The position numbers were made by a program, and so were the translations under genes. 64,000 nucleotides of DNA from Capsulimonas corticalis (GTDB lineage Bacteria; Armatimonadota; Armatimonadia; Armatimonadales; Capsulimonadaceae), in NCBI RefSeq assembly GCF_003574315.2, contig NZ_AP025739.1, forward strand, positions 5,890,001-5,954,000, given 5' to 3'. The notes beneath the pieces were generated by a model, which was not told where the DNA came from, made no database searches, and saw only the letters and a program-made list of their open reading frames with translations. Below are positions 22,785-62,428 of this stretch, piece by piece; the stretch's first letter is position 1, and each line of letters starts with the position of its first letter.

Positions 22785-22832
22785 AGATTCAAACCTAGCC
22801 CTTAAAAGCGTGGGCGCAGCGACTATCAAGAG

Positions 22833-22880: not shown

Positions 22881-25800
22881 TTATTGCGACCGAACTGCGG
22901 AGGTCGGCTGCACGAGCGGACCGGAATTGGTCGGACGGCTAATCGTTGACGACGGAGACAGATAGAAATTCCCTGCCTGATAATCACCGATTTTGGCGGT
23001 AAATACTTCGCCGCCAATTTTGGGTATAGGGCCGTTATTGAGGCCATTTTCTCCCCCAACATCCCCATCCGTGGTGGATGATGTCAGCAGATATTGACCA
23101 ATGGTGTACTGGTTGCCGCCAATCGTACCTTGATCGTAACCCACCAGCTGAATGCTAGAAGCGGCAAACTGCCGGGCTGGCCTTAAAAACGTCGTCGCCA
23201 AGCTGGTGTCAATCGGAGACTGCATTGCCCGATAGTCCACATTCGTGAATCCCCATTGCGCATATGGTTTGTAGAAGCCAAGCAGACCATCATGCGCGGC
23301 GTCTGGAGACTGAAGGCGCAAGTCGAAGGCTCCGTCATCGTCGGCAAGCAGCAGATGGATACGGGGCGTCGCCACTCCAGCCACAACGATCTGATCGACC
23401 ACGACCTTCACATATCTCGGGTTGATAAACGAGAAGGTGCTATTCGCATTCTGTCCCGTGTTCGCCAGTGCGTCGGCGGCTGCGGATGCAATATCGAATT
23501 TACCCTTGTCATTGCCCGTTGCCAATAGATACCCATTGAAGCTGGAGTAAGCACGCAGCCGTAGATTTGTGGGGAAAGTCGGGCTTTCCGCATCAATATG
23601 AATGTAGCCAGATGACGGCAGCAACGCGCCCGTGGCATAGTCTACATAATCCAGCATTACGACGCTTCCGCCCGGAGCATCCGCTGCAGCGGGGGCCTGA
23701 ACTCCCAGTTTGAGGGGTCCGACCGCCTGAGCGGGAAGATAGGGGCTAATCTTTTTATTGCTGACGAGGCCAACGATATACCTACCTTTATCCGGTCCAT
23801 CGAAGTAATCGGCGCTCACATATCGATATTGGCGGCCCAGCACATCGTAAGTATGACTGACCCAGGTGAGGTTGTGCGGGAAATTGTTACTCAAAGCGCC
23901 GCTGGGACCAAAGTTGTCCGTGATTTCGATGATACGAGAGTTCCCGCTGTCGGCAATCAAATAGTGGACGTTGGTAATTCCGGTAGTAGCGTCGTAGTGG
24001 CGCTTCGCGCGGATGCTTGTTGGTTGGTTGAGCGTGTCCGGCTGGCCAGTATTGGCGAGAAGCCCGTTGGGATCCTGGAATCGGGTTAGCTCCCAGATCA
24101 CTTTGCCAGCGCGATCAAATTCCACGCAGCGATTATTTCCGGTATCAGCCACCAGATATGTATTCGAATCGAGTTGAGAGACATCCGAAGGATGCTTGAA
24201 GTCCATATGCGCGATTGCAACTTTGCCCGTGGGATTTACGGTCGCGAAGGGTCCACCGGCGACGGTTGCTTTCGTCGTCGCGTCCACGGACCAAATCGCA
24301 TCCCCATCAGCGTCGAGCTCCAAAATACGATCGCTGTCCGCAACGAGCGTTTTAACGTTCTGCAATATGGAAATCGCGGGAAACGTATTGCCGCCGCTCG
24401 TGACGACGCCGCTCAGCCCAATCGAACCGCTTCCTGTCACTGGGATCGAATCCGCCGCAGTCAGCCCCGTCGCGACGGACGCCAGGACCTTTTTGCCAAA
24501 AATGTCGAGCGCCGTCAATGGAGTGGTAACGAACTTTGGATATGGAGCAACGCTCAAGCTTGCCGCTGAGGGGTGAACGCTGACCCGATATAGATTGCCG
24601 CCTGTATCCCCGAAGAAGGCGTAATTTCCGACCAGCGTAAGCCCCGCCGTCACCGGCGACGCGACTCCGGCCAGAATACACCAGTTCATGTTGCTGCTGA
24701 GCTGAACGGTGACCGGACCTTCCGGTGTATTGTTTGTCCCATCATAACGAGTGTAACTAACCTGAATGGGAGCCGGCTCGCACAAATTGGGGATCAGCGT
24801 CCCCTGCCCCATCGCTCCAATTGCTCCAAAGTTGGTAAACTCCAGAAGACCATCGCCGCCGCCGGTAAACTGCACGCCCTGAATCAAAGGGATGGGCGTG
24901 ACGCCAAATTCCGAATATGCCTGAAATTGCCCATTGTAAATCGGCTGAGACACCGAAAAGTTCGCGACCGTCCCCGTAGGCGTATTCGCTCCAAAAACAT
25001 TGGCCGTAATCGCTTTGTTCGTGTCGAATGAGAGAACCGCCGCCTTCGTTCCAGTAAGATCGGCCGCAAGCGCATAAACGGTCCCGCTCTCGTCAATTAC
25101 GGGCGCGCCAATAAAGTTGAAATCCTGCAGTTTTGAATAGTCAACTCCAGACGAGTCCGTAAATGCGCCGTCCTTGGAAGTCGGAAGACGGAAGCGCCAG
25201 CGAATACTGCGGTTGCCAGGCAGTACGCCATCTTGAATACATTCGATCACGCTGTCTTTGTTGTTTGGATCCGGGTTCGTGACGGTCAGGTACGCAAATC
25301 CGTTCTTATCGATTGCAGGCGCGGATGTATATGTTGTCAATGTGCTCGCTTGATAATTTGACGCATCCGACAATGCAATCGCCGTTCGTGTCGCTCCCGC
25401 TCCCGCAGCACCGGTGAGTGATGTGAGATAGTCAGCATAGAACGGAGGAGCATAAGGCGCCCCTGTGGGGCTGGTGAACGATTGAGGGGAGACGCCTCCC
25501 GAAGCCGAACTTAAATAGCCTGTATTTAAGCCATACAGCGTCGGCGCATGAGGCGCCGATGTGATCATCGACGAATTGGGGAAATTGTTAAACAGCTTTG
25601 TAACAACATCACTTCCATTTGCGGTCAACAGCTCTCCATATGATCCAACAAAAACGGAGTAAACCATCCGGTTCGTTGTAATATATAGGACAACGTCATT
25701 ATTGTACGATTGCCCATTCAGACCATATTGCCATTGAAGGGAAACCGACGGCGGCGCCGTGACAAATTCCGGTCCGGTGGCGTAACCTGGCGCTAAAGAA

Positions 25801-27557
25801 TTTGGCTGAGGCGCGAACTGGGTCTGCGCGCCACCATTCAGGAAATCGACCGTCATTACGCTCCCGTCTGGCTGCCCGGCATACAGGAAGTTTCCGTACA
25901 CGGTAGGAGCAGGCGCGTAGATATTCTTCGTGGCCGTAGCCGGATCGCCGTACTGTTTACCACCACTCGACGGAGTATATGCAGATCCTAACAGCCCGGA
26001 GGCAAGGTCATACGACTGCACCTTGCCGTCTTTCTCCTCCACGTAGATGACGGGCGCCGATGCAGGGCCGGGAATCGCGATGGTAGGAGAGGACGAGAAA
26101 AGGCCGGGTTTGCCGGTGCCTGTTGTATGCCAGATTTCGTCGTATCCCGCTCCAAGGCTGTAATCAGCGTCGCCATCATCGGCCTTCGTGTCCGCGTCTA
26201 AGTCTTCTCCCGGAATAAGATCGAATACGTGCAGCACTCCGCCTCGGTCCACTACGGCCAGATAATGACCGTAAATCGCGGAACCGGCGGAACCAGCCAC
26301 ATACAGCGGCGGCGCTGGCGGCGTATAGCCTGAAATCGCGTTTGAGGACACATAGTGCCAGGCCGGCGCGACGGCGGCGGACAGAGCGCTCGTCGTAGCG
26401 GAATTCTGGTGCGAATTACCGTACTCTGAATTGTGAATACCGGTCCAGCTCATCACGTTGACAAGAAACTTGAGATCCGCAATCGGCGCGCGCGCCAGCG
26501 TCGCAGGCCCGGTGGCGATATTTGAGCCAACATCTCCCGTGCAGAACGGACCGGAGTTGGGAGCGTTCTGCGGGATTGTATTGGAGCTGTCATACCCGCC
26601 AAGGAAATCGTTAATCGCATTACAGCTAGCGGTCGTATCCACTACAACCTCACCAGCGCCAACTTGCGCGGCGGCGACGACCGGTGTTGTGGAGTTAACC
26701 GCGTTCAGCAAAACGGACGACAAAGTGTCCGTAGGATCTAAGGGCAGGTTGATATTGCTAGTTACTAACCCATAATCGGCCGCCGCCAGATCTTGAGAAT
26801 GCCCTAAACTGTTAAGATCGGTGGGCGACAGAAAGTTCGGCTCCGAGATAATAGGATGGCGAAAAAACGCTCCACTAGGGGTCGCTGGAAGCACGCCGAC
26901 GGTATAGGATCCTGGTGTGAACTGCAGCTTGAAGAATAGGGGGCCATCAGAAGCAATGTCAAACGGATTTTTGACCGCTGTCGTATCCACCCCAGTGTTT
27001 TCAATGAGAAGCTGACCGCCGCCGTCCACATATTGCCGAAGCATCTCGCGTTCAGCTAACGTGAAGGAAATATTCGAGCGCATATTGAGCAGCAGGATAT
27101 TGAACTGGCGAAGATCATCCACATTCTTGATATTGGCTAAGTTAACTTCCCAGTAAGCGCCCATATTCGGCGTGACCTGGGCTCCAATCGTATAGGCATG
27201 TCCGCTTGCGGCAATTCCGTAAGGATCCGTGGGAATATTGGATGCGACACCATCCCAGTGCTGCTGGAGCGCCACAGTGACGACCTTTGGCGCAAGCGGG
27301 TTGACAATCGTCCAACCGGCCGGCTTAACATCCGCGCGCTGACTCAAAATGTAGAATGGGTACGGATCCGTATTTGGCAGCGTATTCGGAGTATTATTCC
27401 TGTCCTGAAGGACGATTACGCCGGCGTTAATCGTCTTCTGCTGGGAGTTATAGCTGTACGCCGCCGCCTGCGCGGCGCGTGGGGTGACGGCCGCCGCGCT
27501 CACCAAAGTGAGCGCGGCGGCGATGGAGGCCTGACCTAAGCGGAATTTTCGAAACAT
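22881..27557 (-). CDS. Giant secreted protein with PQQ-like and NHL-like propellers, 1558 aa
   Basis: The N-terminus has a signal peptide (ASIAAALTLVSAAAVTPRAAQA, residues about 10-32), behind AGGA at 27557. Residues about 110-220 look like a flavodoxin/amidotransferase-like fold without a catalytic triad (FNILLLNMRSNISFTLAERE, then LRQYVDGGGQLLIENTG). Propeller-like strands run from about 430 to 1050 (YLAVVDRGGVLHVFDLIPGED, VIYVEEKDGKVQSYDLASG). NHL-like repeats follow near 1150-1300 (ILELDADGDAIWSVD, YLVADTGNNRCVEFDRAGKVIWE, LIADSGNSRIIEI). A DLDADTKADDGD loop near 450 fits calcium binding. It sits between the PilX-like gene and the 2654-aa protein and probably joins the same surface complex. 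Confidence 0.75.
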   Translation of the reverse strand: MFRKFRLGQASIAAALTLVSAAAVTPRAAQAAAYSYNSQQKTINAGVIVLQDRNNTPNTLPNTDPYPFYILSQRADVKPAGWTIVNPLAPKVVTVALQQHWDGVASNIPTDPYGIAASGHAYTIGAQVTPNMGAYWEVNLANIKNVDDLRQFNILLLNMRSNISFTLAEREMLRQYVDGGGQLLIENTGVDTTAVKNPFDIASDGPLFFKLQFTPGSYTVGVLPATPSGAFFRHPIISEPNFLSPTDLNSLGHSQDLAAADYGLVTSNINLPLDPTDTLSSVLLNAVNSTTPVVAAAQVGAGEVVVDTTASCNAINDFLGGYDSSNTIPQNAPNSGPFCTGDVGSNIATGPATLARAPIADLKFLVNVMSWTGIHNSEYGNSHQNSATTSALSAAVAPAWHYVSSNAISGYTPPAPPLYVAGSAGSAIYGHYLAVVDRGGVLHVFDLIPGEDLDADTKADDGDADYSLGAGYDEIWHTTGTGKPGLFSSSPTIAIPGPASAPVIYVEEKDGKVQSYDLASGLLGSAYTPSSGGKQYGDPATATKNIYAPAPTVYGNFLYAGQPDGSVMTVDFLNGGAQTQFAPQPNSLAPGYATGPEFVTAPPSVSLQWQYGLNGQSYNNDVVLYITTNRMVYSVFVGSYGELLTANGSDVVTKLFNNFPNSSMITSAPHAPTLYGLNTGYLSSASGGVSPQSFTSPTGAPYAPPFYADYLTSLTGAAGAGATRTAIALSDASNYQASTLTTYTSAPAIDKNGFAYLTVTNPDPNNKDSVIECIQDGVLPGNRSIRWRFRLPTSKDGAFTDSSGVDYSKLQDFNFIGAPVIDESGTVYALAADLTGTKAAVLSFDTNKAITANVFGANTPTGTVANFSVSQPIYNGQFQAYSEFGVTPIPLIQGVQFTGGGDGLLEFTNFGAIGAMGQGTLIPNLCEPAPIQVSYTRYDGTNNTPEGPVTVQLSSNMNWCILAGVASPVTAGLTLVGNYAFFGDTGGNLYRVSVHPSAASLSVAPYPKFVTTPLTALDIFGKKVLASVATGLTAADSIPVTGSGSIGLSGVVTSGGNTFPAISILQNVKTLVADSDRILELDADGDAIWSVDATTKATVAGGPFATVNPTGKVAIAHMDFKHPSDVSQLDSNTYLVADTGNNRCVEFDRAGKVIWELTRFQDPNGLLANTGQPDTLNQPTSIRAKRHYDATTGITNVHYLIADSGNSRIIEITDNFGPSGALSNNFPHNLTWVSHTYDVLGRQYRYVSADYFDGPDKGRYIVGLVSNKKISPYLPAQAVGPLKLGVQAPAAADAPGGSVVMLDYVDYATGALLPSSGYIHIDAESPTFPTNLRLRAYSSFNGYLLATGNDKGKFDIASAAADALANTGQNANSTFSFINPRYVKVVVDQIVVAGVATPRIHLLLADDDGAFDLRLQSPDAAHDGLLGFYKPYAQWGFTNVDYRAMQSPIDTSLATTFLRPARQFAASSIQLVGYDQGTIGGNQYTIGQYLLTSSTTDGDVGGENGLNNGPIPKIGGEVFTAKIGDYQAGNFYLSPSSTISRPTNSGPLVQPTSAVRSQ

Positions 27558-27613: not shown

Positions 27614-30600
27614 TTAAGGGCGGTCGTCGGCGGCTTGGCCGGCGTATAACAGTCCATCACAAACGGGCAATCGCGGCGCGAAGGGCAGCGGATTGCCATA
27701 ACTGTCGCAGCGCAGGACGGTCGCCAAATGCGTCGTGGTGTCGTAAGTATATGGGAACGCGCACTGCGGATTGTAAATGATCGTCAGGCCATCTCCCGGA
27801 TGGTCGTTGGAGACATTGTAGGGAGCGTTCGGAAGAACGTGTCCAATCCCAGCCCTCTCTTCAGCAATCGTCTGCTCGCCGCGCGCCGAGGGGATACCGC
27901 CGATCATGCTGCCATGGTATTGCGGAATCCAGCCCCACTTCTGCATCCATGCGTTCTGCGCGCTGATGTCCGCTGGATGGGCCTCCGACACTGCGCCGCT
28001 AATAATGATCTTCATATCGATCGGCTGCCCATTGAATGGATAGCGTGATTGATCGGGAAGAGTGTTATCCAGCAGCGTGCCGCGGTCAATATAAAACCCA
28101 TTCGGAGTTGCTTTTCTCGCATCCGTGACGGCGTAATTTTTCACCGTGTCGCCGCCATCACTGTTGAACCACTGTCCCGGAATGACAAAGAACGATTTGT
28201 TCTGAGCATACAAGATCGCTTCAATCCGAATATCCATCGGAAGCACGGCGGCGCGCTCCAGCAGCAGTTGACTGGTGTTATTGGCGGCCTGAATTCCATT
28301 CAAACGGCTCGTCCAGAGTTGCAGCGGCTCGTCTTCCAGAATGTTCAGTAGAGTCTTGCCTGTCGAGTCGATCTGCAAGGTGGACATATCCACGGTCATA
28401 TGCACGGCCGGATTGAGCATCGTATTCTTGTAAAATGCGGAGGCGTCATCCTGCGGATTCGTCAAACCTGGCGTGAACGACGCAACCAAATTGGTGCGTG
28501 GGTTATACAGCGAGAACTTGATGTCCGTATTTCCTGCCGTGCTCGAATCTGGACCAGCGCTATAGTATAGTGCAAGTGTTTGATACTGGGACGGCTTACC
28601 GCCATTGGGCAGTCCGAAGTTGAACTCCTGAACCAGAGACGGCAGCAAACCATCTTTGGGCGTGAAATCGAGTTTCGTGATATCTCCCGAGTTCGTTGAG
28701 GGCGGAAGCACTCCCAAGACAGGATTGGAGACCATCGGCCCCGCCGTGAACTGTGTGGTGTTCACGCAGACATAATCGCGGGCAAGCACGGCAATACTGG
28801 AATTAGGATTGCCTTTCAGCAAATTCCCTTCAACATAAGCCGTCGCGTTCGTGACAATTGTGATATGGCGCGCCAATGGATCGTCGTTATCGGTCGGCAC
28901 CGGCGAATCGTTCGGATCGGCGCTAATAATCCCATGCACCCGCACATTGCCTTCCGCGACAATGACGATATCCCGGTTGATGTTGCCGCTCGCGACGCCT
29001 GAATAAAAGTCACGGAACGGAATATACATCACCGAACTGCCGCTATTCTTGTCGGTCGGATCTAACCATTGAAAAATCGTATTGTTCGCCGTCTGATCGT
29101 GGCGGATCAGCGTGATTCCGTATTGACCTTGCAGCGTTCCTGCCGCGAAGGGAAGCCGGCCGAACACAATCTCCACGCCCGGCGGGACATAAATGTCGCC
29201 GACCCATCCGCCCTTGGATGTAAGAGGATTATCATTGGCGTGGTTCCGGTTAAGCCATTGATCCACCAGGGTCCCGCCGCCGGTGACGCCAATACTCTCA
29301 CTCTGAACATCACTGCTGTTATTGATATAGACCGTTTGCCCATATCCATTTTGCGACGCGTCAGGCATCGGGTTTGTCACACCGTCGCGGATCGGCGAGT
29401 TGATTGCCATGGATCGATAACGAGACATGCTCGTCACGCTATCGACGTTATCGATCTTGGGCGGATCAAGTCGCTTGATCTGCCGCGCAAATCCATTGGC
29501 GTCATTCCCGGAGGATCCCGACCGGCCATCGCGAACGGCGCCGCCGAACGTCTGGAAGCTCGGATCGCTGCTCGGGTAAACGGGCACGGAGCTGACTGCC
29601 GGATCAGATGAATAAGCAAACGCCAAATTCGACGGCTGCTTTGTCAAATCCGAAAGACCGCCGGTCTGGACGGAAGGATCGAAGTGATCCAGAATTAAGT
29701 CTCCGTTGATCTCAATCTGGTCGCTCAAGCTTGGCGTGGCGGTGTTGGCGGTGTCCGGCCGATTGAGATAGATAGTATTCTTGCCATAAAAGCGCACAGA
29801 GCTATTGGACCGGAACGCTCCCCCACCCGCTGCAATGTTCGTTCCATTCGCCGGAGAGGCTCCGGAGCCGGCGTTGGGATTTGGCAGTAAAAAGGTAAAG
29901 CTAGTGGACGGATCCGGCTGCGCGATATAAGCATCGGATGCTCCCAGAGTCGTTGCAACCCCAAACGAACGGATCTGCGCGGACCGCGACTCCGATGTTT
30001 TGCCATAAAAATCAAACACCCCGGGTGTCGTGATATCATTCAAGTTCGCATCATAGATGCTGGGAACTCCGATACTCGCGATGTCCGAGCGGCGATCAAC
30101 ATCCGTTATAAAACGCGCATAGTCCGTGATGCCGATCGGCTTATACGCCACCAGCTTCGCAATTTGCGTTCCTCGCGCCGCTCGTGGAAACGTGGTTGGG
30201 TCTTTCGGATCGATATTTCCCTCTCGCCCCACGGCCTCGATTTTGATGTAACGCGCCAGCGGATCCGTCGCCACGGGGGCTCCAGGATTTTTGGGGTCAA
30301 AAACCGCAGGTTGCGTATTTTTCGGGTTAAACTGGCTGCCCAGGGGGTCGTAGGTCACCCGGATCAAGAAGCGGCCATTACCGGTATTGTAACGAGCATA
30401 TCGCTGCGACAAATAGTCATAATCCGGATCTTTGCGAAGCGCAGCAGTCTGAGCTGGCGTCAAATTGGCCATGATCGCAATCGGCGGACGCCAGTCGGCG
30501 CCTTCCACGCTCGTGCGAAGCTGGTCATCGGCGAACCGAAGCCCCGACTGCGCGTAATCATCCGCAGTCTGCACCGTTCCCGCCGTATGAGCATTGACCA

Positions 30601-30748
30601 GGTTGCGCGCGACGATAGTAACGAACAAACCTCCCACAAAAGCGAGCAGCAACAGAACGAGCAGCGCGATGACAATCGTCTGGCCCTGCCGCGCCTTGCG
30701 GCGAAATGGAGATTTACTGACAACAAGAATACTGGATTTGCTCTTCAT
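27614..30748 (-). CDS. Oversized PilX-like pilus assembly protein, 1044 aa
   Basis: After a short basic leader (SPFRRKARQG) comes one hydrophobic helix, QTIVIALLVLLLLAFVGG (about residues 23-40), then LFVTIVARNL and a hydrophilic helix with ADDYAQSGLRFADDQLR. This is the pattern of PilX N-terminal segments, in which the usual FTLxE is replaced by Gly-Gln-Thr. The remaining 970 residues are beta-rich and exported, including stacked strands such as IVIVAEGNVRVHGIIS and ITIVTNATAYVEGNLL near 640. Classical PilX has under 200 residues. Position between PilW-like and propeller genes matches the fimT-pilVWX-pilY1 order. The ribosome site before ATG 30748 is weak. Confidence 0.75.
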   Translation of the reverse strand: MKSKSSILVVSKSPFRRKARQGQTIVIALLVLLLLAFVGGLFVTIVARNLVNAHTAGTVQTADDYAQSGLRFADDQLRTSVEGADWRPPIAIMANLTPAQTAALRKDPDYDYLSQRYARYNTGNGRFLIRVTYDPLGSQFNPKNTQPAVFDPKNPGAPVATDPLARYIKIEAVGREGNIDPKDPTTFPRAARGTQIAKLVAYKPIGITDYARFITDVDRRSDIASIGVPSIYDANLNDITTPGVFDFYGKTSESRSAQIRSFGVATTLGASDAYIAQPDPSTSFTFLLPNPNAGSGASPANGTNIAAGGGAFRSNSSVRFYGKNTIYLNRPDTANTATPSLSDQIEINGDLILDHFDPSVQTGGLSDLTKQPSNLAFAYSSDPAVSSVPVYPSSDPSFQTFGGAVRDGRSGSSGNDANGFARQIKRLDPPKIDNVDSVTSMSRYRSMAINSPIRDGVTNPMPDASQNGYGQTVYINNSSDVQSESIGVTGGGTLVDQWLNRNHANDNPLTSKGGWVGDIYVPPGVEIVFGRLPFAAGTLQGQYGITLIRHDQTANNTIFQWLDPTDKNSGSSVMYIPFRDFYSGVASGNINRDIVIVAEGNVRVHGIISADPNDSPVPTDNDDPLARHITIVTNATAYVEGNLLKGNPNSSIAVLARDYVCVNTTQFTAGPMVSNPVLGVLPPSTNSGDITKLDFTPKDGLLPSLVQEFNFGLPNGGKPSQYQTLALYYSAGPDSSTAGNTDIKFSLYNPRTNLVASFTPGLTNPQDDASAFYKNTMLNPAVHMTVDMSTLQIDSTGKTLLNILEDEPLQLWTSRLNGIQAANNTSQLLLERAAVLPMDIRIEAILYAQNKSFFVIPGQWFNSDGGDTVKNYAVTDARKATPNGFYIDRGTLLDNTLPDQSRYPFNGQPIDMKIIISGAVSEAHPADISAQNAWMQKWGWIPQYHGSMIGGIPSARGEQTIAEERAGIGHVLPNAPYNVSNDHPGDGLTIIYNPQCAFPYTYDTTTHLATVLRCDSYGNPLPFAPRLPVCDGLLYAGQAADDRP

Positions 30749-30771
30749 CGAAACCGTGCCTATACTGCCGC

Positions 30772-32850
30772 TTAGCGGTTGCTGTTGCCAACTTTGACAT
30801 TGCTGCTGGCGCTGACGATTTGCGCCAGGCTACCGGAGGTGGGATAAAGCCTGACTCCAATGGTCACACCGATCAAATCGCGGCTCTGATAATCAACACG
30901 CACGCTCATAGGCGCCGCCGGGTTGCTCAAATCTCTCGGCTTAGTCTGGTCGACAACTGTAAGGTTCGACTGATACTGCCAGACAATAGAGACGGGCAGC
31001 CCATTAGCCGAAGGATTGAACAAGATCGTTCCCTGCTCATAGTCCACGAGATATTCATTGTCGCCAGGGGACTCACCCGGTCCTACCGGCGTATATAAAA
31101 TCGTCTCCGCCACTCCTGGGTTCGCTGTTGGAATTGCCTCTCGCTTTGGCCCATAAACCCGGACCGATCCAGGCGTCACGATCGCGTTCGTCACCGTAAC
31201 GAGTGGCGATTTTGGTAATACTTTAAGATCAACAGAATTCGCCGCGCTCGGAGCCAGACCAACCGTCGTGTCCCACGAAGTATTGGCTCGCTTCGTTCGA
31301 ATTTCGAGATCTGTTCCTGTGTATAAGTCTGGATCAGGCAATGCATTGACGGCAAACGAGATCGTTCCGCTATCCGGATTAACGACAGCTGGCACATAAT
31401 CCGGAGTCGCAATTCCCTTAACCGGAGCTCCATATGTCACATTATAGACAGCCGCTGGCGTCGCCGACAGGAAATATTCAACCAAGTCACCAGCCGCAAT
31501 GCCGAGACTAGTATTATCAATCGGGGAACGCTCAATGCGATACTTCGCTCCGGCAGGCAGAGCATTCGGATCAGCCGCAGCTCCATTGATCGCCGAGTAA
31601 AAGTTGATCGTGAAAGGTTGATTCCAAGCCTGACCCTCCGTGCGATAGACAGACGGAATGAATGGCAGACCATTATTGTCCGCCGCCTTCTCTGGCACGC
31701 CGGCCCCAACATAATCCGTATTTGTCGCCGGGGTTGCATCATTGGTAATAGTTGGCTTGAACGTCACGCTCGTATTGACGACTGGATATGCGGAGGTAGG
31801 GATAACAGAATCCTGCATTGCGCCGTAATGGGCAATCCCTTTGAAAGTCCCCGAGGCGTCATAAGCAATCGAGCCGTCCGAATTGTGCGGAAGCATCAAC
31901 AAATCAACTTTAGGGGCGCCGATCACATGCTGAGCAATTTTTTCCCACTGCACGAGCCGATTATTATGAGCTGTTACCTGGGCGGCAGTATAGGGATTGT
32001 GCCCGGCGTCCAGCCAATTGACATCTGACGTCGAGACTTTCCGGAAGAAGTCCGGATCATCAAAAATCGGCGACTGCTGATTATCCGGTGTGGCGCCCGA
32101 CTCATCTGGCACATCAAACAAAAGATATTTACCCGTTTGTGGGTCTGTCGCCTGGGGTCTGAACTGTGCGCGATATAACACGTAAGTATTGTCATCGCCA
32201 TTGGAGGCGCCCGATCCCTCATGCACGTTTCGATAAGGCTTTTCCGGGTTTTGGAGGCCAACAAAGTAACGCACCATCGTCGTTCCAGGCGCGATCGGCA
32301 GCAATAGACCGGTTGGACGCACGACTTGAACTCCATTGACTGTTTCGATGACAATTGGCTCGTTGTCTAATGTCGGGTCCGCATAACGTCCTGACTGCTT
32401 TCGCGGAAGCACAAAGTCCAGTTTGGCGTTGAAGGCGTGTCCAAAAGTAGTTTGCCCAACATTAAAGTTGGGAATCTCCAGATTCAGGAAGTTGCTAAAA
32501 CGCTCATAAGGATATCCGGTGTTAGGATCGACAGACGCTGCGGATGCTCCGACAAAAGGATGGCTGGCGTTGTCGTAAACATAGGCCGCACTTCCAAGCT
32601 CACGAGTTACAACCTCCATCGTCTTACGGGCAGAGTCCTGAGCGGCGGCGGTCGCCTGCGCTTGCTGCGTGAGTGAGAGCGAATCCACAAGTGGCTTAAG
32701 CAGGAGGCCAAAAAGCAGCACCGAGATCGCGATCACGACGAGCAGCTCGACGAGCGTAAACCCAGCCCTCGCGTCAGCGCGAGCGGTCGTGTTTCCTGAT
32801 TTTTCAGAATGGACGTTAGTGTGTCGCATAAATCTCTTCAATGTGTGCAT
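30772..32850 (-). CDS. PilW-like prepilin with large C-terminal domain, 692 aa
   Basis: A type IV prepilin signal is clear: ADARAG cut before FTLVELLVVIAISVLLFGLLL, with Glu at mature position 5. After the helix, SLTQQAQATAAAQDSARKTMEVVTRELGSAAYVYDN resembles PilW N-terminal regions. The remaining 600 residues are beta-rich and unusually long (PilW is usually near 300). ATG 32850 shares a base with the stop of the gene before (TAATG), which suggests coupled translation. ATG 32829 would give a shorter leader and is an alternative. It should be processed by PilD and sit at the pilus tip or initiation complex. Confidence 0.82.
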   Translation of the reverse strand: MHTLKRFMRHTNVHSEKSGNTTARADARAGFTLVELLVVIAISVLLFGLLLKPLVDSLSLTQQAQATAAAQDSARKTMEVVTRELGSAAYVYDNASHPFVGASAASVDPNTGYPYERFSNFLNLEIPNFNVGQTTFGHAFNAKLDFVLPRKQSGRYADPTLDNEPIVIETVNGVQVVRPTGLLLPIAPGTTMVRYFVGLQNPEKPYRNVHEGSGASNGDDNTYVLYRAQFRPQATDPQTGKYLLFDVPDESGATPDNQQSPIFDDPDFFRKVSTSDVNWLDAGHNPYTAAQVTAHNNRLVQWEKIAQHVIGAPKVDLLMLPHNSDGSIAYDASGTFKGIAHYGAMQDSVIPTSAYPVVNTSVTFKPTITNDATPATNTDYVGAGVPEKAADNNGLPFIPSVYRTEGQAWNQPFTINFYSAINGAAADPNALPAGAKYRIERSPIDNTSLGIAAGDLVEYFLSATPAAVYNVTYGAPVKGIATPDYVPAVVNPDSGTISFAVNALPDPDLYTGTDLEIRTKRANTSWDTTVGLAPSAANSVDLKVLPKSPLVTVTNAIVTPGSVRVYGPKREAIPTANPGVAETILYTPVGPGESPGDNEYLVDYEQGTILFNPSANGLPVSIVWQYQSNLTVVDQTKPRDLSNPAAPMSVRVDYQSRDLIGVTIGVRLYPTSGSLAQIVSASSNVKVGNSNR

Positions 32851-34772
32851 TATTGAGTGCGTGGCAGCAACGTGTCGATCACACGATGCTTCCACTGGTC
32901 GTTCTCACGCCAGACCACAATCGCGTTCGCGGAGACTCCGCGAACGGAGGTAATGGTCACTGGTTTCGTACTATCGTAATTCGCTAACTGCGCTATACCC
33001 GCCAAGGGAATAAAGCCAACGGATTTCCCATTCAAAATAACCGGCTGATTGATTGCCGAACTCGTGGTCGGCAGGGGAACCCTGTATCCATTGCCGCTCG
33101 AGTCATAATAGTTGACTGTGCCGGAAATCGAAACCGTCTTTCCAAAATCGCAGAACGGAAAGTCAACGCCTTGAACGTTGCCGCTCGCATCCACATTCAC
33201 GCCGTAGAGATTGACGGGCCCAAGGTAACCTGGACGAGGCGCTGTTAAATCACTAGACTTCGTAGCGGCGGTATAGTAAGCCGGCGCCTTTTGTATCGCG
33301 ACGCCCCAATCCGCCTGTCCCATATAATAGATTCGCAGGTGCAGGCCGTTTGAGTTGGGTGTCGCAGCCGGATCGTTATAAACGGTGTCGACTGGCGCCG
33401 CTCCCGCCTTAGGAAACGTCACTCGGCCATTCTTATAGCTGATCCCGACTTTTGTCTTATCCGTGGCGTCCCCATCTAAGTCAACGGCATTGGCGGAGCT
33501 GCTGAAAAGCTCACTATCTCCGTTTTCCAGATTGCAAATGATCAGATCCGCCGGAGCCAATGGGCCAAAGATCCCCGAGAAGAGTGTTTGATCGTACTGC
33601 GCGTCACCGATTTTTTTCAAATTGTCGATCGCGAGCCTTATCGTCCGATCCTCACTGACAACAGGTAAATCGCGATCTTCATGCAGAAGATGCCAGTCGT
33701 AAACATTGTAAGAGATGCGAGCTTTCAACGGCTGAGCGCCGTTACCGCCTGCGCCCAGAGGGTTAAAATCCAGAACTCCCATATTGACGCTTGGACCGAC
33801 ATTCCCTTTGCGAAGCTGGAACTCGTAAGGATCCGCAGACCATTTACTCGTGATAGTATCGTTGGGGGTAGTCGGAGCATCGCCGCCATCCAGCAGCGTA
33901 AAGGGTCGGTATAAGACTGCCGAGCCTTTGATCCAATTGACAGTTAATGGAAGCGCCGCTCCGTTTACGACGCTAACAACCGGCATCGCATCCCAGGTAT
34001 CGCCCAATCCTGCAGGAACCAAATACTCGCAAATACCTACGCCCGCGTCCGTCATTACCGAAAATTCAAATCTCTGGGCATAGGACGCACTTGGGACGGC
34101 AATCAAATGCCGATCATAATCGATCAGATACTCAGAATTCCCGCTTGTGAGCAGTCCTTTAGGATCGTCCACGGCAGCGGTTCCATCTTGCGACGTGATC
34201 GAATTGTCCGTTGTCGACCCTGAGGGAAGGCTGCTTGCTATGCGCGCGGTCCACGGCGCGCTAGTGACGGTGATGCTGTTACCGGGGTCGATAACTCGAG
34301 GCATCATATGATTGACGACGGCGGGACCGTAATTCAAGACATGGACGCTTGCCCAGCTATATTGACCATTCGCCGGCGTGACGGCGCGGGCAGGCGGTAC
34401 GGTAATCGTCTCATTGACGACGCGGCGCGCTTTGTTGATATCCATGTAAGCCGGATCTTTGGGATCCAGCTTCCATTTACCGGTATCGTCAGGCGCCGTT
34501 GTCGGATCGTAGCCGATATCGTCGCGGTAGATATAGATGCCGTCGGCAATGGCGCTGTTGTCCTTGCTGACGCTTTCCAAAAGCGATCCGCCCATGCGCT
34601 GCGCGACTCCATTGTTTTGCGCGGCGCGGAAGACGAGAAAGCCTGCCGGGAAGAGACGAATCACGCTAAGGATCCCGAAAACCAGGATCACGAGCACGAC
34701 CAGGATCTCAATCAGCGATGTTCCTCGCCGGGCGGCGTTACGGTTAGTAGTTTGTGCGTACACAGAATTCAT
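32850..34772 (-). CDS. PilV-like prepilin with large C-terminal domain, 640 aa
   Basis: The prepilin cleavage motif AARRG|TSLIEILVVLVILVFG is followed by ILSVIRLFPAGFLVFRAAQNN, the pattern of PilV minor pilins, with Thr at mature position 1 and Glu at 5. The tail of about 600 residues is beta-rich and has no motif I recognise; PilV proteins usually have under 200 residues. The gene follows the two short prepilins and overlaps the PilW-like gene by one base, so the three are co-transcribed. ATG 34772 lacks a strong ribosome site. Confidence 0.82.
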   Translation of the reverse strand: MNSVYAQTTNRNAARRGTSLIEILVVLVILVFGILSVIRLFPAGFLVFRAAQNNGVAQRMGGSLLESVSKDNSAIADGIYIYRDDIGYDPTTAPDDTGKWKLDPKDPAYMDINKARRVVNETITVPPARAVTPANGQYSWASVHVLNYGPAVVNHMMPRVIDPGNSITVTSAPWTARIASSLPSGSTTDNSITSQDGTAAVDDPKGLLTSGNSEYLIDYDRHLIAVPSASYAQRFEFSVMTDAGVGICEYLVPAGLGDTWDAMPVVSVVNGAALPLTVNWIKGSAVLYRPFTLLDGGDAPTTPNDTITSKWSADPYEFQLRKGNVGPSVNMGVLDFNPLGAGGNGAQPLKARISYNVYDWHLLHEDRDLPVVSEDRTIRLAIDNLKKIGDAQYDQTLFSGIFGPLAPADLIICNLENGDSELFSSSANAVDLDGDATDKTKVGISYKNGRVTFPKAGAAPVDTVYNDPAATPNSNGLHLRIYYMGQADWGVAIQKAPAYYTAATKSSDLTAPRPGYLGPVNLYGVNVDASGNVQGVDFPFCDFGKTVSISGTVNYYDSSGNGYRVPLPTTSSAINQPVILNGKSVGFIPLAGIAQLANYDSTKPVTITSVRGVSANAIVVWRENDQWKHRVIDTLLPRTQ

Positions 34773-34805: not shown

Positions 34806-35717
34806 TTACGGCTTGATTTGCCAAAAATTCGCGGCGCTCACTGCACCGGTCGGCGTCGCCACGGAATCCGAGCCGCCAGCAGCGTTCAAAAACACCGAGG
34901 CGTCAACGGCCTTTGCGGAGCCACTTTCCCACAGCACCAGGACCTTGTTAGCATATGGGACATGATAACTGGTAGACGCCACATAAGTCGACGAAGGCGG
35001 GTTCTGCCACCGCAGCTGTCGTTTGTAAACATCAGCCGGCTGCTCCGAGGGACTTTTCGCCGTCAAGCCAGTAGCCGGTGAGCCATCCGAGGTAATCCCC
35101 GTCCAGGAACTGCTGTATCGTGTCACGTATGTATTTGGATCCGTCTTATTCGTCCCAAGGATTAGCGGGCTGCTGTCGTAGGCGTCCGAGGTGTAAAACG
35201 CAACGGTCTTGGTCTGAATGGAGCCATCCGTATTCAAAAAGATCGTGTCCGAACTATGCACCTTTGTGTAGTCGTTGTTTGGATTGTTGCCATCGGTAAA
35301 CGCGTTGACATCACGAATGTACTCCGGATATAGACCGTCGAAGTATTGATCGACGGCTGATTGATATCCAGGAACGGGATTCGCCACATTCGCCGCGTCC
35401 GCCGCCTGCGCCACATCGTAAGCCTTGTCCATTGCGGCATAGGTCGCTCCAATGGTCGGATACGTATCGGGCAGCGCTTCGCCGAACAAGCTGTGCGGGT
35501 ACGTCTTATGATCGAGACGATATTGCTCAAGCTTAGTGGAGATATCGTGAAGATTCGAAAGCGACGTCTTCTGACGGCCGTTTTCACGCACCGTCGCGAA
35601 CACCGGGAAGATGATGGCGGCGAGCAGCGCGATGATGGCTATCACGACGAGAAGCTCAATCAATGAGAACCCGCCGGCGGCGATATTTGACTTCGGTTTG
35701 ACTGCTGTTTGTTTCAT
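34806..35717 (-). CDS. Short type IV prepilin / pseudopilin, paralogue B
   Basis: The 303-aa protein has a prepilin signal NIAAGG|FSLIELLVVIAIIALLAAI and the class-typical FPVFATVRENGRQKTSLSNLHD after it. It is a paralogue of the gene just upstream: shared elements include GLYPEYIRDVNAFTD against GLYPRYINDVSVFTD, the YTSDAYD/YTADAYD segment, and ends of the form VDASVF...NFW. Its ATG overlaps the upstream stop as ATGA, so start 35717 is preferred over the in-frame TTG at 35732. It may be a pilin or a minor pseudopilin. Confidence 0.87.
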   Translation of the reverse strand: MKQTAVKPKSNIAAGGFSLIELLVVIAIIALLAAIIFPVFATVRENGRQKTSLSNLHDISTKLEQYRLDHKTYPHSLFGEALPDTYPTIGATYAAMDKAYDVAQAADAANVANPVPGYQSAVDQYFDGLYPEYIRDVNAFTDGNNPNNDYTKVHSSDTIFLNTDGSIQTKTVAFYTSDAYDSSPLILGTNKTDPNTYVTRYSSSWTGITSDGSPATGLTAKSPSEQPADVYKRQLRWQNPPSSTYVASTSYHVPYANKVLVLWESGSAKAVDASVFLNAAGGSDSVATPTGAVSAANFWQIKP

Positions 35718-36505
35718 CGATGGAGTTTCCAAAAGTTCCCGCCGTTGTCGTCGAAAACCGACGCATCCAAAACTTTCACGTTGCCGCTTTGGAAGAGCAC
35801 GATTACTTTATTTTGATTCTTGACGTGATAGGTCGAGCTGGTAATATAAGTGTCGCCAGGAGGCGACGGAAAAATCGGCTGCCGCGCGTAGTCTCCAGGG
35901 GACAACGCGCCAGGACCAGTTAACGGAACCCAAGCCGGCTGATACCGCACGATCAGATTTGTATCATCGGTCGCGCTGGCGCCGGTGATTTTTGGATTAA
36001 GGTCATAAGCGTCAGCAGTATAGAATGTCGCTGACTGCGGAGTCAGAGAGCCATCTGTCCCGATCAGATTCACGGTCTTTTGAGTGACAGCATCAGGAGC
36101 GGCTGTGTTGTTTGGATCCGTAAAGACGCTAACATCATTGATATAGCGTGGATACAGACCGGGAAAATATTTGTTCGACAAACCAGCCGCCTTCGCAATT
36201 CCATAAGCGGAACCCATTGGAGCAAATGGAGGGCCAGAGGCCGTTGGATTGGCGGCAGTGAGCGCGGCGGGAACGGCATAGCCAAACAGGACTGGTGGTG
36301 CGGCGGACCGGTTGGCGAGGCGATAATCGGCGATGCCTTTAGAGATTGCTTTCAGGTTCGAGATCACTGTCGCCTGACGCCCTTTCTCACGCGCGGAGTT
36401 AAACACCGGGAAGATAATGGCGGCGAGCAGCGCGATGATGGCTATCACGACGAGGAGCTCGATCAGAGAAAATGCTTGACTAGTTTGACGACACGATTTT
36501 TTCAT
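35714..36505 (-). CDS. Short type IV prepilin / pseudopilin, paralogue A
   Basis: The 263-aa protein has the leader MKKSCRQTSQA before FSLIELLVVIAIIALLAAI, so the residue at -1 of the cleavage site is Ala, not the usual Gly. PilD enzymes tolerate Ala, but often poorly. FPVFNSAREKGRQATVISNLKAISKGIADYR follows, as in GspG/DUF1559-like pilins. It is the first prepilin gene after pilD, 164 bases downstream, and the closest relative of the next gene. A promoter of its own is possible but not clear. Confidence 0.87.
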   Translation of the reverse strand: MKKSCRQTSQAFSLIELLVVIAIIALLAAIIFPVFNSAREKGRQATVISNLKAISKGIADYRLANRSAAPPVLFGYAVPAALTAANPTASGPPFAPMGSAYGIAKAAGLSNKYFPGLYPRYINDVSVFTDPNNTAAPDAVTQKTVNLIGTDGSLTPQSATFYTADAYDLNPKITGASATDDTNLIVRYQPAWVPLTGPGALSPGDYARQPIFPSPPGDTYITSSTYHVKNQNKVIVLFQSGNVKVLDASVFDDNGGNFWKLHR

Positions 36506-36669: not shown

Positions 36670-37719
36670 CTACCATAAAATCCCTGGAGTATGCGAAAAT
36701 GGGCTTCCAGGGAAGGTCAAAAAGTTGCGCACGTACCACGCCACCATATCAGAACCAAAGAAGAGCGCGACCAGCGCGCCTATCACCATCGCCGGACCAA
36801 ACGGGATCGCCGTTCGGCCGCCCAGTTTGCGCCGCTGCTGCACGATCGTGACGATTCCGACAATAGCGCCAATGAAAATTGCGAAGAGCGCCGATTGAAG
36901 CGCCGCCACAAGATACAGATTCGCGCCGATGGCGGCCGCGAGCTTGCCGTCGCCCCCGCCCATTCCCCCAGCCTCTTCATCGGATTCGATCTCCTCGGCG
37001 GTGAAACCTTCAGTCGGCGGCGCGGGTTCGACGAAGCGGCGAAGCGGGGGGATCACATAACTGAGATAGTGCGCGACAATCAAGATCCAGTCGAGCACAT
37101 TATCACGGAGATATTCCCAGAATGCGGCGAAAAAGCTCTTGTTCTTGTCGATCATCGCGACGATGACGACATAGGACGCCAGCCCAATCCCATAGATGAT
37201 CGCGCTGTATCCCAGAGCGCCGATGATCGACGCCGGCATACGAACGCCAAAGATCGTCCCCCACTGTCCCGGCTCATGCAGATAAATCGCCGTCGCGTTG
37301 TGCGCGAAACCGATCAGGGCTGCGAACCAGTTCAAGCCGTCGGGAATGATGAAGTGCTCCAGGTCAATGAAGAACACGCAGATCATCGCCGCTGTGAACA
37401 GACAATAGAAAATGGTTGCGGGAACGCCGCCGAACCGCCACGCCACCGCCGCGAACAGCAGACCGGTGAGTAGTTCGATCGCGGGATACCGCCATGAAAT
37501 CGGCGAGCGGCAGTATCGGCAGCGCCGGCGAAGCGCGAGGAAAGAAAATACGGGGAACAGATCCAGTGTCCCCAGGCGATTCTCGCACCGGGGACAGTAG
37601 GACCAGGTCGGCTTTGCCACGCTTCCGCCGCGCGGCAGTCTCCAAATCACGACGTTCAGAAAGGAGCCAATGGCGATACCATAAAGGAAGGCGACAGCCA
37701 CCCACAACCAGAGACTCAC
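36670..37719 (-). CDS. pilD: Prepilin peptidase (leader peptidase/N-methyltransferase)
   Basis: The 349-aa membrane enzyme removes prepilin leaders and methylates the new N-terminus. The N-terminal SFLNVVIWRLPRG is followed by a four-cysteine zinc site (Cys42, 45, 67, 70). The aspartate protease pair is Asp119 (FFIDLEHFIIPDGLN) and Asp257 (GMGGGDGKLAAAIG, the GxGD motif). Between them the loop after the mid-protein helices is long, about 190-250, with a charged PPTEGFTAEEIESDEE stretch; typical PilD has about 290 residues. It starts 12 bases after pilC and should process the prepilins encoded just downstream. Confidence 0.95.
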   Translation of the reverse strand: MSLWLWVAVAFLYGIAIGSFLNVVIWRLPRGGSVAKPTWSYCPRCENRLGTLDLFPVFSFLALRRRCRYCRSPISWRYPAIELLTGLLFAAVAWRFGGVPATIFYCLFTAAMICVFFIDLEHFIIPDGLNWFAALIGFAHNATAIYLHEPGQWGTIFGVRMPASIIGALGYSAIIYGIGLASYVVIVAMIDKNKSFFAAFWEYLRDNVLDWILIVAHYLSYVIPPLRRFVEPAPPTEGFTAEEIESDEEAGGMGGGDGKLAAAIGANLYLVAALQSALFAIFIGAIVGIVTIVQQRRKLGGRTAIPFGPAMVIGALVALFFGSDMVAWYVRNFLTFPGSPFSHTPGILW

Positions 37720-37731
37720 GCAATACTCCCT

Positions 37732-38982
37732 TTAATCGCCGCCGCCCTTGTCGTCATCGCCGCTGCCGGACAGGTTCTGGATCAGCGAGACCATCGGCAT
37801 GAACATACCCAGAACAATCAAGAGAACGGCGACGCCGAGAAAACAAATCAGCAGCGGTTCGATCGCAGCGGCAAGCGAGGCCAGCGCCGCATCGACTTCA
37901 TCTTCGTAAAAGTCGGCGATCTTCCCCAGCATGGCGTCGAGCGAACCCGATTCCTCGCCGATGGAGATCATATGGATGACCATGGGAGGGAAGAGCTTCG
38001 ACTTGACCAGCGGATCACCGATCCGGTCTCCTTCACGGATACGCGCGCGCGCTTCCATAATGGCGTCGGACATGACGACATTTGAGACCGTGCCCGAGAC
38101 CGTTTCCAGCGCCTGCAAAATCGGAACGCCGGAGACCAGAAGCGTGCCCAGCGTTCGCGCGAAGCGCGCCAGGGCGACCTTATGGTTGAGCGGACCGAAG
38201 ACCGGCATCTTGATCATCAAACGGTCGAAGGCGTAACGGCCGAATTTCGTCTTAACGAAGGCCGTAAGCGCAATCCTGGACACGACGAAGATCGCGATAC
38301 ACCAGTACCATTTTCCTGTCAGGAAGTTGGAAAACGCCATCAAGCCAAGAGTAAGGGCCGGGAATTCCTTGACGCCCAGGTCTTTGAAGAGCTGGATAAA
38401 CTTCGGAACAACGAACGTACAAAGACCGACGACGATGCCGACGGCGGCGATGACGACGATCGTGGGATATGTCAGCGCCGATTTGACCTTGCGACGCAGC
38501 TCGACGTCCTTTTCCAAGAACGTGGAGAGACGCTGCAAGGTTTCTTCCAGAACGCCTCCTACCTCTCCGGCGCGGACAAGTCCGATGAAGAGGTTGTTGA
38601 AGACATTGGGATACTTGCCCATGCTGCGCGACAGCGACTGGCCGGCTTCGACTTCCTTCTGGATCTCCAGAAGAATTCGGCGCAGGCGCGCATTCGCGGT
38701 CTGCTCGCCGAGAACCGACAGACAGCGCACCAGCGAAACGCCGGCGTCGACCATCGTCGAGAACTGGCGGCACATAATGGAGAGCTCGGTCAGCTTGATC
38801 TTCTGGAGGTTGTCCAGAAACGATCCGCCGCCGGCCCGCTTCGCCTTCGACTGCTTGATCTCGGAGATAACGAAGCCCTGCTCGCGCAGACGCCTCGCGA
38901 GGACATCGGGGTTCTCCGCCTCCGAGGTTCCGTTTCGCAGTACGCCGGCGGCGTCACGGACGGAATATGCATATGTCGGCAT
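37732..38982 (-). CDS. pilC: Type IV pilus inner-membrane platform protein
   Basis: The 416-aa GspF-family protein has two related halves, each a cytoplasmic four-helix domain followed by membrane helices: LSIMCRQFSTMVDAGVSL near residue 68 with GLVRAGEVGGVLEETLQRL near 135, and KVALARFARTLGTLLVSGVPILQAL near 270 with MISIGEESGSLDAMLGKIA near 338. It anchors the PilB and PilT motors to the pilus base. Glycine-rich DDDKGGGD ends the protein. It is separated from pilT by 185 bases and from pilD by 12. Confidence 0.95.
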   Translation of the reverse strand: MPTYAYSVRDAAGVLRNGTSEAENPDVLARRLREQGFVISEIKQSKAKRAGGGSFLDNLQKIKLTELSIMCRQFSTMVDAGVSLVRCLSVLGEQTANARLRRILLEIQKEVEAGQSLSRSMGKYPNVFNNLFIGLVRAGEVGGVLEETLQRLSTFLEKDVELRRKVKSALTYPTIVVIAAVGIVVGLCTFVVPKFIQLFKDLGVKEFPALTLGLMAFSNFLTGKWYWCIAIFVVSRIALTAFVKTKFGRYAFDRLMIKMPVFGPLNHKVALARFARTLGTLLVSGVPILQALETVSGTVSNVVMSDAIMEARARIREGDRIGDPLVKSKLFPPMVIHMISIGEESGSLDAMLGKIADFYEDEVDAALASLAAAIEPLLICFLGVAVLLIVLGMFMPMVSLIQNLSGSGDDDKGGGD

Positions 38983-39167: not shown

Positions 39168-40541
39168 TTAACGCTGAGGGCGCTGATATCCCGCAGGACC
39201 GCTTCCGCCAGAACCGCTTTCACTCGCATCGATCGCCAGCATCTTCTTCAGTTCTTCGAGGTTGTGCGCGCGCGAAGTCGCCGACTCGTAAGAGATGTTG
39301 CCGCGCATATAGTGATCGCGCAGCGCCTGGTCCGTGGTGATCATGCCGACGTTGCCCGACGTTTGGATCGCCGAGGTAATCTGGTGCGCCTTCGCCTCGC
39401 GGATCAGGTTCCGGATCGCGGGAGTGGCGATCATGATCTCCTGGACGGCGACGCGTCCCTGGCCGTTGGCGCGCGGGATCAGCTGCTGGGCGATGATCGC
39501 CTGAATGTTGTTCGAGAGCTGCAAGCGCACCTGACTCTGCTGTCCCGGAGGGAAGCCGTCGACGATACGGTCGACGGAGGTCGCGGCGGAGTTGGTGTGC
39601 AGGGTCGCGAAGACAAGGTGACCGGTTTCCGCGGCGGAGATCGCGAGCTGCATCGTGTCGAGGTCTCGCATTTCACCGACGAGGATGATATCGGGATCTT
39701 CACGAAGACAGGCGCGCAGCGCGTTCGGGAAGCTCTTGGTGTCCGACCCCAGCTCACGCTGATTGATGACTGACATCTTATGAGAATGCAGGTACTCGAT
39801 CGGGTCCTCGATTGTGATGACGTGCTCGGACCGGCTCGTGTTGATATGGTTGATCATCGCCGCCAGCGTCGTCGACTTACCAGAACCGGTCGGGCCGGTC
39901 ACCAGGATCAAGCCGCGCTTGGTGTGGGTGAGCTTCTCGACGATCGCCGGAAGCTGCAAGTCTTGCAGGGACGGGATTTTGGTCGGGATCAAACGCAGGG
40001 AAGCGGCCACGGCGCCCTTATCCTTGTAGATATTGACGCGGAAGCGGGCCCGCTTTTGGAGCGCGTAGGAGAAGTCCAGCTCCCAGGTGCTTTCGAACTT
40101 CTGGATCTGTTCGTCGGTCAGGATCGCGTACATCATCTGCTGCACGTCCATGGGCGTGCAGTTCTCGTACATCGTCGGCACGAGCGCGCCGTTGGCGCGG
40201 ACAACGGGCGGAATGCCGGCGGCGATATGAAGGTCGGAGCCGCCCATGTCGATGATGATTTCCAGCAGTTCGTCCAGGTGGATCTGATCGATCGGCTTTT
40301 TCTTCACCTGCGGAGCGGCCATCTGCTCCATGCCGGGCACGCCCTGGCTGTATCCTGGCTGCGTGGGCGGGGCGTAACCACCCTGCTGCGGGGGCTGCTG
40401 CCCCGGCGGCGGCGCGTAGCCTCCCCCCCCATTCTGCGGCTGAGGCGCATAGCCTCCACGCTGCTGCGCTCCGGGCTGAGGAACGCCGGGCTGTCGGTTA
40501 TAGGGCGGCTGTTGTCCCTGACCACCGATCGTCTCAGACAT
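39168..40541 (-). CDS. pilT: Type IV pilus retraction ATPase
   Basis: The 457-aa protein is the motor that pulls pili back by removing pilin subunits. The catalytic part starts near residue 82 (PIDQIHLDELLEIIIDMGGSDLH) with Walker A GPTGSGKS at 216-223, Walker B region IILVGEMRDLDT near 287, and the C-terminal AIRNLIREAKAHQI and TTDQALRDHYM motifs of PilT. The first 80 residues are an unusual Pro/Gln/Gly/Tyr-rich tail with GGYAP repeated three times; normal PilT has about 350 residues and no such tail. The gene lies between pilB and pilC. Confidence 0.95.
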   Translation of the reverse strand: MSETIGGQGQQPPYNRQPGVPQPGAQQRGGYAPQPQNGGGGYAPPPGQQPPQQGGYAPPTQPGYSQGVPGMEQMAAPQVKKKPIDQIHLDELLEIIIDMGGSDLHIAAGIPPVVRANGALVPTMYENCTPMDVQQMMYAILTDEQIQKFESTWELDFSYALQKRARFRVNIYKDKGAVAASLRLIPTKIPSLQDLQLPAIVEKLTHTKRGLILVTGPTGSGKSTTLAAMINHINTSRSEHVITIEDPIEYLHSHKMSVINQRELGSDTKSFPNALRACLREDPDIILVGEMRDLDTMQLAISAAETGHLVFATLHTNSAATSVDRIVDGFPPGQQSQVRLQLSNNIQAIIAQQLIPRANGQGRVAVQEIMIATPAIRNLIREAKAHQITSAIQTSGNVGMITTDQALRDHYMRGNISYESATSRAHNLEELKKMLAIDASESGSGGSGPAGYQRPQR

Positions 40542-42530: not shown

Positions 42531-42741
42531 TTCGAAAGCCTGCCTCCTCAAACACCCGCATCCTGTCCGTCTCGCTCGGTCACTGCAAATCCTCGATAGA
42601 CACGCTTAATCAGCAATGTGACGAGAATGGGGAAAACGAAAAAAATAGAACTATTTAGAAAGAACGAAACATCCGCGCAAGACGCCGAGGCAGCTGGGAT
42701 TTGAGACACTTTCAAGATCGTGTGGTATAAATTGTGGCCTT
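42531..42741 (-). other. Long untranslated leader of pilB
   Basis: From the promoter at 42742-42770 to ATG 42530 is about 205 bases of leader. It includes an AT-rich potential hairpin AAATAGTTCTATTT followed by a T-run (about 42638-42657 on this strand). No known riboswitch core was recognised. Confidence 0.4.
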
Positions 42742-62312: not shown

Positions 62313-62428
62313 CACGGCGTTCCCCGCAGGAATACGGGGGTCTCCAGTTTTATCCAATCCGCGCCAATAATCAAATCGGTAATATTTTACGGGCGGGCGG
62401 CGCCAGCGCCTTGGAAGGATTGCTTGAA

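Follow-up and report, generated by a model that had tools for sequence, protein, structure and literature searches.

The window, i.e., the whole stretch of 64,000 nucleotides that was analysed, belongs to a genome consisting of a single contig of 7.6 Mb, and contains on its minus strand a series of pilus-related genes in the order PilB, PilT, PilC, PilD, A1, A2, V, W, X, Y and Z. This work is mainly concerned with three of them, V, W and X. The features are the following, with window coordinates used throughout:

62411..63634, plus strand: PilM (TIGR01175, 227 bits, cut-off 133)
40638..42551, minus strand: PilB extension ATPase (best match TIGR02538, the type IVa PilB model, with 624 bits, below its cut-off of 676)
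39168..40541, minus strand: PilT retraction ATPase (TIGR01420, 491 bits, cut-off 319)
37732..38982, minus strand: PilC platform protein
36670..37719, minus strand: PilD prepilin peptidase
35714..36505, minus strand: A1, pilin of 263 aa with a GspG/PilA-type N-terminus
34806..35732, minus strand: A2, pilin with a GspG/PilA-type N-terminus, in a frame of 308 aa
32850..34772, minus strand: V, PilV/GspI-type minor pilin of 640 aa; Gly-1 is precursor residue 17 and Glu5 is present; predicted structure with helices at 16-70 and a beta-rich tail up to 640
30772..32850, minus strand: W, PilW/GspJ-type minor pilin of 692 aa; cleavage before FTLVE, Glu5 present, tail of about 600 residues
27614..30748, minus strand: X, PilX/GspK/ComZ-type minor pilin of 1044 aa; helix at 23-79, without Glu5; predicted ComZ-like pilin and beta-solenoid body, with a low-confidence CBM-like beta-sandwich at about 668-837
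22881..27557, minus strand: Y, 1558 aa, Sec-type signal peptide by inspection; next to X, conserved, and candidate counterpart of PilY1
14820..22829, minus strand: Z, 2669 aa, Sec-type signal peptide by inspection; Golvesin_C match at 340-480 and PQQ-like blade motifs by inspection

A secretin gene follows beyond the window edge, at genome position 5957554. A PilT well above its cut-off, the match to the PilB model, PilM and the nearby secretin gene together indicate that the locus encodes a type IVa-like pilus. Some of these components have peculiarities of their own. For instance, the Peptidase_A24 match of PilD spreads 184 residues over 104 profile positions, which implies an insertion of about 80 residues in the catalytic domain, and the conserved part of PilT is preceded by some 85 additional N-terminal residues in which Pro, Gln and Gly abound. 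Additionally, the genome has at least 150 prepilin N-methylation motif sites in frames of 143-439 residues, so that its pilin-headed proteins form a very large family, and eight secretin matches, with three secretin genes in tandem at genome positions 2922646-2926669.

The original prediction described three consecutive genes of 640, 692 and 1044 residues, each with a pilin N-terminus, and both the open reading frames and the prepilin leaders were verified. The stop codon of V overlaps the start of W, for which the ATG gives 692 aa, while a mechanical open reading frame from a GTG 15 codons upstream (32895) gives 707 aa. The class III (prepilin) N-termini read RRG/TSLIEILVV in V, RAG/FTLVELLVV in W and RQG/QTIVIALL in X. 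The traits of the type IV pilin superfamily (a short basic leader, Gly or Ala at position -1 and a hydrophobic N-terminal helix) were found in every aligned V, W and X, the residue before the cleavage site being Gly in all of them except for Ala in some V and W sequences.

Among the aligned sequences, all 57 of V and all 62 of W have Glu at position 5 of the mature protein (Glu5), and none of the 69 of X does, this position being mostly Ile or Val in X. Consequently, the helix of X is normal, as had been stated, in the sense of a PilX/GspK-type helix, i.e., one that lacks this residue. Glu5 is likewise missing in the PilX of Pseudomonas, Neisseria and Myxococcus and in GspK, and pilins of the PilX/GspK type have been assigned to the pilus tip, with PilX beneath PilY1 (PMC7541494). 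The locus thus shows the signature of a PilV/PilW/PilX tip set: V and W have Glu5 and X does not, and the three genes are consecutive and followed by one for a large secreted protein. From this Glu5 pattern and the gene order, V, W and X are likely to be functional counterparts of PilV-PilW-PilX and GspI-GspJ-GspK. The assignment to PilV, PilW and PilX that had been proposed from the sequence is therefore supported in three ways: the order of the genes, the distribution of Glu5 and weak matches of the N-termini to these families. None of the three proteins reaches a curated PilV, PilW or PilX family cut-off (V scores 28.1 bits, E 2.4e-6, against the PilV equivalog TIGR02523, whose curated cut-off is 52.2) and, consequently, they were not assigned to these equivalogs. 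In Pfam and NCBIfam, only N-terminal pilin motifs are matched by V and W, and X has no match at all, two members of the X family matching GspK weakly. The N-terminus of W also matches HpsC and Verru_Chthon C weakly. The HpsA and Verru_Chthon A models have no match in the X of this genome, and one of 29 relatives matches Verru_Chthon A (E 0.0065).

Profile searches in 151 sampled Armatimonadota genomes gave matches to V in 126, to W in 146 and to X in 139 of them, and the gene order in the clusters of 40 genomes is largely the same as at this locus. In public contigs, V-W-X-Y is complete in 52 of 80 loci, where the gaps have a median of 9 bases; in the remaining 28 it is interrupted only by the ends of the locus or contig. 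The lengths of the mature proteins are conserved as well, with medians of 601 for V (533-683), 633 for W (549-808) and 954 for X (800-1095) in 56-69 complete open reading frames. The dN/dS of the tails between close pairs is 0.030-0.102 for V, 0.027-0.101 for W and 0.014-0.101 for X. Such low values mean that strong purifying selection acts on the tails, which are thus maintained proteins and not run-on frames. Long frames arising by chance are ruled out, since frames of such sizes recur at the same site throughout the phylum, and a frame artefact or a strain-specific fusion is ruled out by the intact frames across the phylum and by dN/dS values well below 1. Broken frames in relatives, which had been named beforehand as a finding that would speak against the prediction, were looked for; the frames turned out to be intact in nearly all relatives, with tails under strong purifying selection, the exceptions being an X split into two overlapping frames in one relative (L093), fragments in another (L086) and a split Y (L123).

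The enlargement of V, W and X is thus the norm in Armatimonadota and not an oddity of one strain. The “three to five times normal” size of the original prediction holds against proteobacterial PilV, PilW and PilX and fails within Armatimonadota, where this size is the rule. Two draft genomes depart from this pattern. One, from the same genus (69% complete), has no match to V, W or X, and another, from the same family (94% complete), has no match to V or X and a weak one to W; either incomplete assembly or genuine loss may account for these gaps. No X match was found among 72,556 plasmids. In the scan of public contigs, the sole named lineage outside Armatimonadota among the best 80 of 152 relatives was one Propionibacteriaceae, the others bearing Armatimonadota names or no lineage name, and distant relatives may exist in other groups. 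The metagenome-assembled genome concerned, named Propionibacteriaceae bacterium UBA6122, has a complete V-W-X-Y cluster and is probably a mislabelled Armatimonadota genome.

An AlphaFold model of X, built from a 69-sequence alignment, has a mean pLDDT of 76 and a pTM of 0.85 and shows the helix at 23-79 followed by a beta-rich body, so that X is predicted to be one rigid body. When this model was compared with the PDB (VIA-align), the best match was ComZ of Thermus thermophilus (6qvi_B; Z 12.6, 258 aligned residues, 4.5 A, model residues 134-1034), followed by a second match at Z 9.0. By Foldseek alone, ComZ is not among the first 50 matches listed, and GspK is not among the structural matches listed for X. 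Neither ComZ nor any other PDB chain was matched by sequence in a profile search at E values up to 10 and, consequently, the link between X and ComZ is a structural one only. ComZ has a beta-solenoid inserted within a GspK-like pilin fold and binds DNA, and it has been argued that such a rigid protein fits nowhere but at the pilus tip (PMC6561018). The prediction for X is likewise a pilin domain joined to a ComZ-like beta-solenoid. Additionally, residues 668-837 or thereabouts resemble CBM36/CBM6-type and similar beta-sandwiches (CBM36 1w0n, Z 8.2, over 113 of 120 residues), and relatives have this stretch too, its median length among them being 172. As a Z of 8.2 is borderline for common arrangements such as this one and the model is weak there (pLDDT about 40-80), the CBM-like part is to be taken as a lead.

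The tail of V is less easily related to known folds. All matches of the AlphaFold model of V (pLDDT 80, pTM 0.82) stayed below Z 8, the best being Z 6.0, and long stretches of V were barely covered. The original prediction had asked whether the tails share domains; profile-profile comparison revealed no clear one, with a weak element of 57 columns between V and W (probability 25%), while neither of these two had any element in common with X or Y.

The gene set does not end with X, where the original prediction had left it, but runs on into two even larger secreted proteins, Y and Z. The family profile of Y matches propeller proteins of the PQQ/BamB and NHL types, with a PQQ-like region at about 460-990 and an NHL-like region at about 1059-1160 (profile positions), and some members of the family match DUF4159 near the N-terminus. 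In proteobacteria, the PilY1 gene lies downstream of PilX, and Y occupies the equivalent place. Y also resembles PilY1 proteins in being a secreted protein, judged by its signal peptide on inspection, with a beta-propeller and encoded after a PilX-type gene. The PilY1 domain PF05567 is absent from Y and six relatives (hmmscan), and a genome-wide search for PilY1 in the phylum gave no match, the controls being all equally silent. Of the 53 loci that leave room beyond Y, 44 have a giant frame there, and a profile built from these frames matches Z (E 8e-132).

We consider it probable that V, W and X form an enlarged tip and priming complex of the type IVa pilus that is used in binding and is found throughout the phylum. 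This reading starts from the gene content of the locus, its conservation, the Glu5 pattern and the selection on the tails, together with the predicted ComZ-like fold of X; the tip position, the formation of a complex, the partnership of Y and the class of ligand are what we infer from them. V, W and X would be cleaved by the neighbouring PilD, and X would then cap the filament, with W and V beneath it, so that the large beta-rich tails would stand at or around the tip. The V-W-X complex would prime pilus extension and, most likely, Y would dock on X as PilY1 does. Solenoid, sandwich and propellers would then constitute a large adhesive tip that PilB extends and PilT retracts. The “unusually big tip structure” that had been suggested from the size of the tails fits this reading, as the model of X resembles the tip pilin ComZ (Z 12.6) and Glu5-less pilins of the PilX/GspK type have been assigned to the tip (PMC7541494). 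That the tails bind a surface or a substrate, as had also been suggested, is plausible by analogy, considering the CBM-like domain and the ComZ precedent; adhesion to surfaces or polysaccharides would be the most likely use, followed by DNA capture. A bolder version, which we find doubtful, is that V, W, X, Y and Z, with about 6,600 residues, build one giant type IVa tip peculiar to Armatimonadota, in which propellers unrelated in sequence to PilY1 sit on a ComZ-like cap. Such a tip would be too large for the usual exit through the secretin and, therefore, might be completed outside the cell or pass through a modified channel.

Other functions may be envisaged for the same set of genes. As the nearest solved structure to X is a competence pilin that binds DNA (PMC6561018), and the genome encodes a ComEC-type Competence protein (PF03772, E 6.6e-56), the enlarged tip could be a ComZ-type receptor that catches DNA, which the pilus then draws in. 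However, 10 of 14 control genomes also have the Competence family, so that finding it here is not very informative, and the net charge of X is slightly negative in most segments after the leader, which lends no support to binding of DNA. Furthermore, a pilus with PilT resembles a general type IVa pilus and not a dedicated competence set, and we regard this reading as unlikely. About equally unlikely, in our opinion, is a type II-like secretion system whose pseudopilus tip (GspI-J-K) expels exoproteins, with Y and Z as its substrates and not as partners of the tip. V, W and X fit the I-J-K scheme, GspK is weakly matched by two X family members as mentioned above, PilB scores nearly as well against GspE (602 bits) as against the PilB model (624 bits) and a T2SS has been reported from Armatimonadetes (PMC6668835). 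Nonetheless, the PilT in the operon, a retraction ATPase and as such not expected in a type II system, is well above its cut-off (491 vs. 319) and recurs in the clusters of relatives, and the nearby PilM is of the pilus type. It is less probable still that the large pilins decorate the filament shaft or the cell surface instead of capping the tip: modular pilins could sit in the filament body if their linker is flexible enough (PMC8179133), but X lacks Glu5 in 69 of 69 sequences, it is predicted to be a single body (pTM 0.85), as has been argued for rigid ComZ, and the three proteins are encoded as single conserved copies beside Y.

We found no papers on proteins of the V, W or X type from Armatimonadota in the open-licence literature. 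Large and modular pilins are already known (PMC8179133; ComZ); what is new is the enlargement of a whole tip set together as a trait of a phylum and the presence of propeller proteins in the position of PilY1, as well as the predicted relationship of X with ComZ, including the added sandwich. How pilus tips recognise their targets has yet to be settled, and most of what is known about tips comes from proteobacteria, Thermus and streptococci. A whole phylum in which the tip set is enlarged and yet conserved provides a natural series in which to ask what size a tip can reach without becoming too large for the secretin, and whether other propeller proteins can fill the PilY1 position. The predicted link between X and ComZ suggests, in turn, that solenoid-bearing tip pilins without Glu5 are commoner than the Thermus case alone would indicate.

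Several known systems share characteristics with this one. The Verru_Chthon cassette (TIGR02596-02600) and cyanobacterial HpsA-C are also clusters of pilin-headed proteins, some of which are long, although the matches to them are far below cut-off and confined to the region of the N-terminal helix. In the modular pilins PilB and PilC of Streptococcus sanguinis, a pilin head likewise presents a large functional module, and over 1,200 modular pilins have been reported (PMC8179133). By contrast, the modules described here contain no Pfam domain, and three neighbouring pilins are enlarged jointly. GspI-GspJ-GspK of type II secretion agree with V-W-X in the Glu5 pattern and in having a GspK-like pilin with a large extra domain; this domain is predicted to be a beta-solenoid in X and not helical, PilT is present and the tails are far larger. 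PilV-PilW-PilX-PilY1 of Pseudomonas and Myxococcus share with V-W-X-Y the gene order (known from Pseudomonas), the Glu5 pattern and the large secreted protein after PilX. Here, however, all three pilins are several-fold larger and reach no curated cut-off, Y has propeller regions of the PQQ/NHL type without a recognisable PilY1 domain, and FimU has no clear counterpart. Finally, ComZ of Thermus thermophilus (PDB 6qvi) is, like X, a large pilin without Glu5 in which a beta-solenoid is joined to the pilin domain, as predicted for X. The latter is about twice as long and has an additional predicted beta-sandwich, with no sequence similarity between the two up to E 10, and it belongs to a V-W-X-Y set encoded beside PilB, PilT, PilC and PilD.
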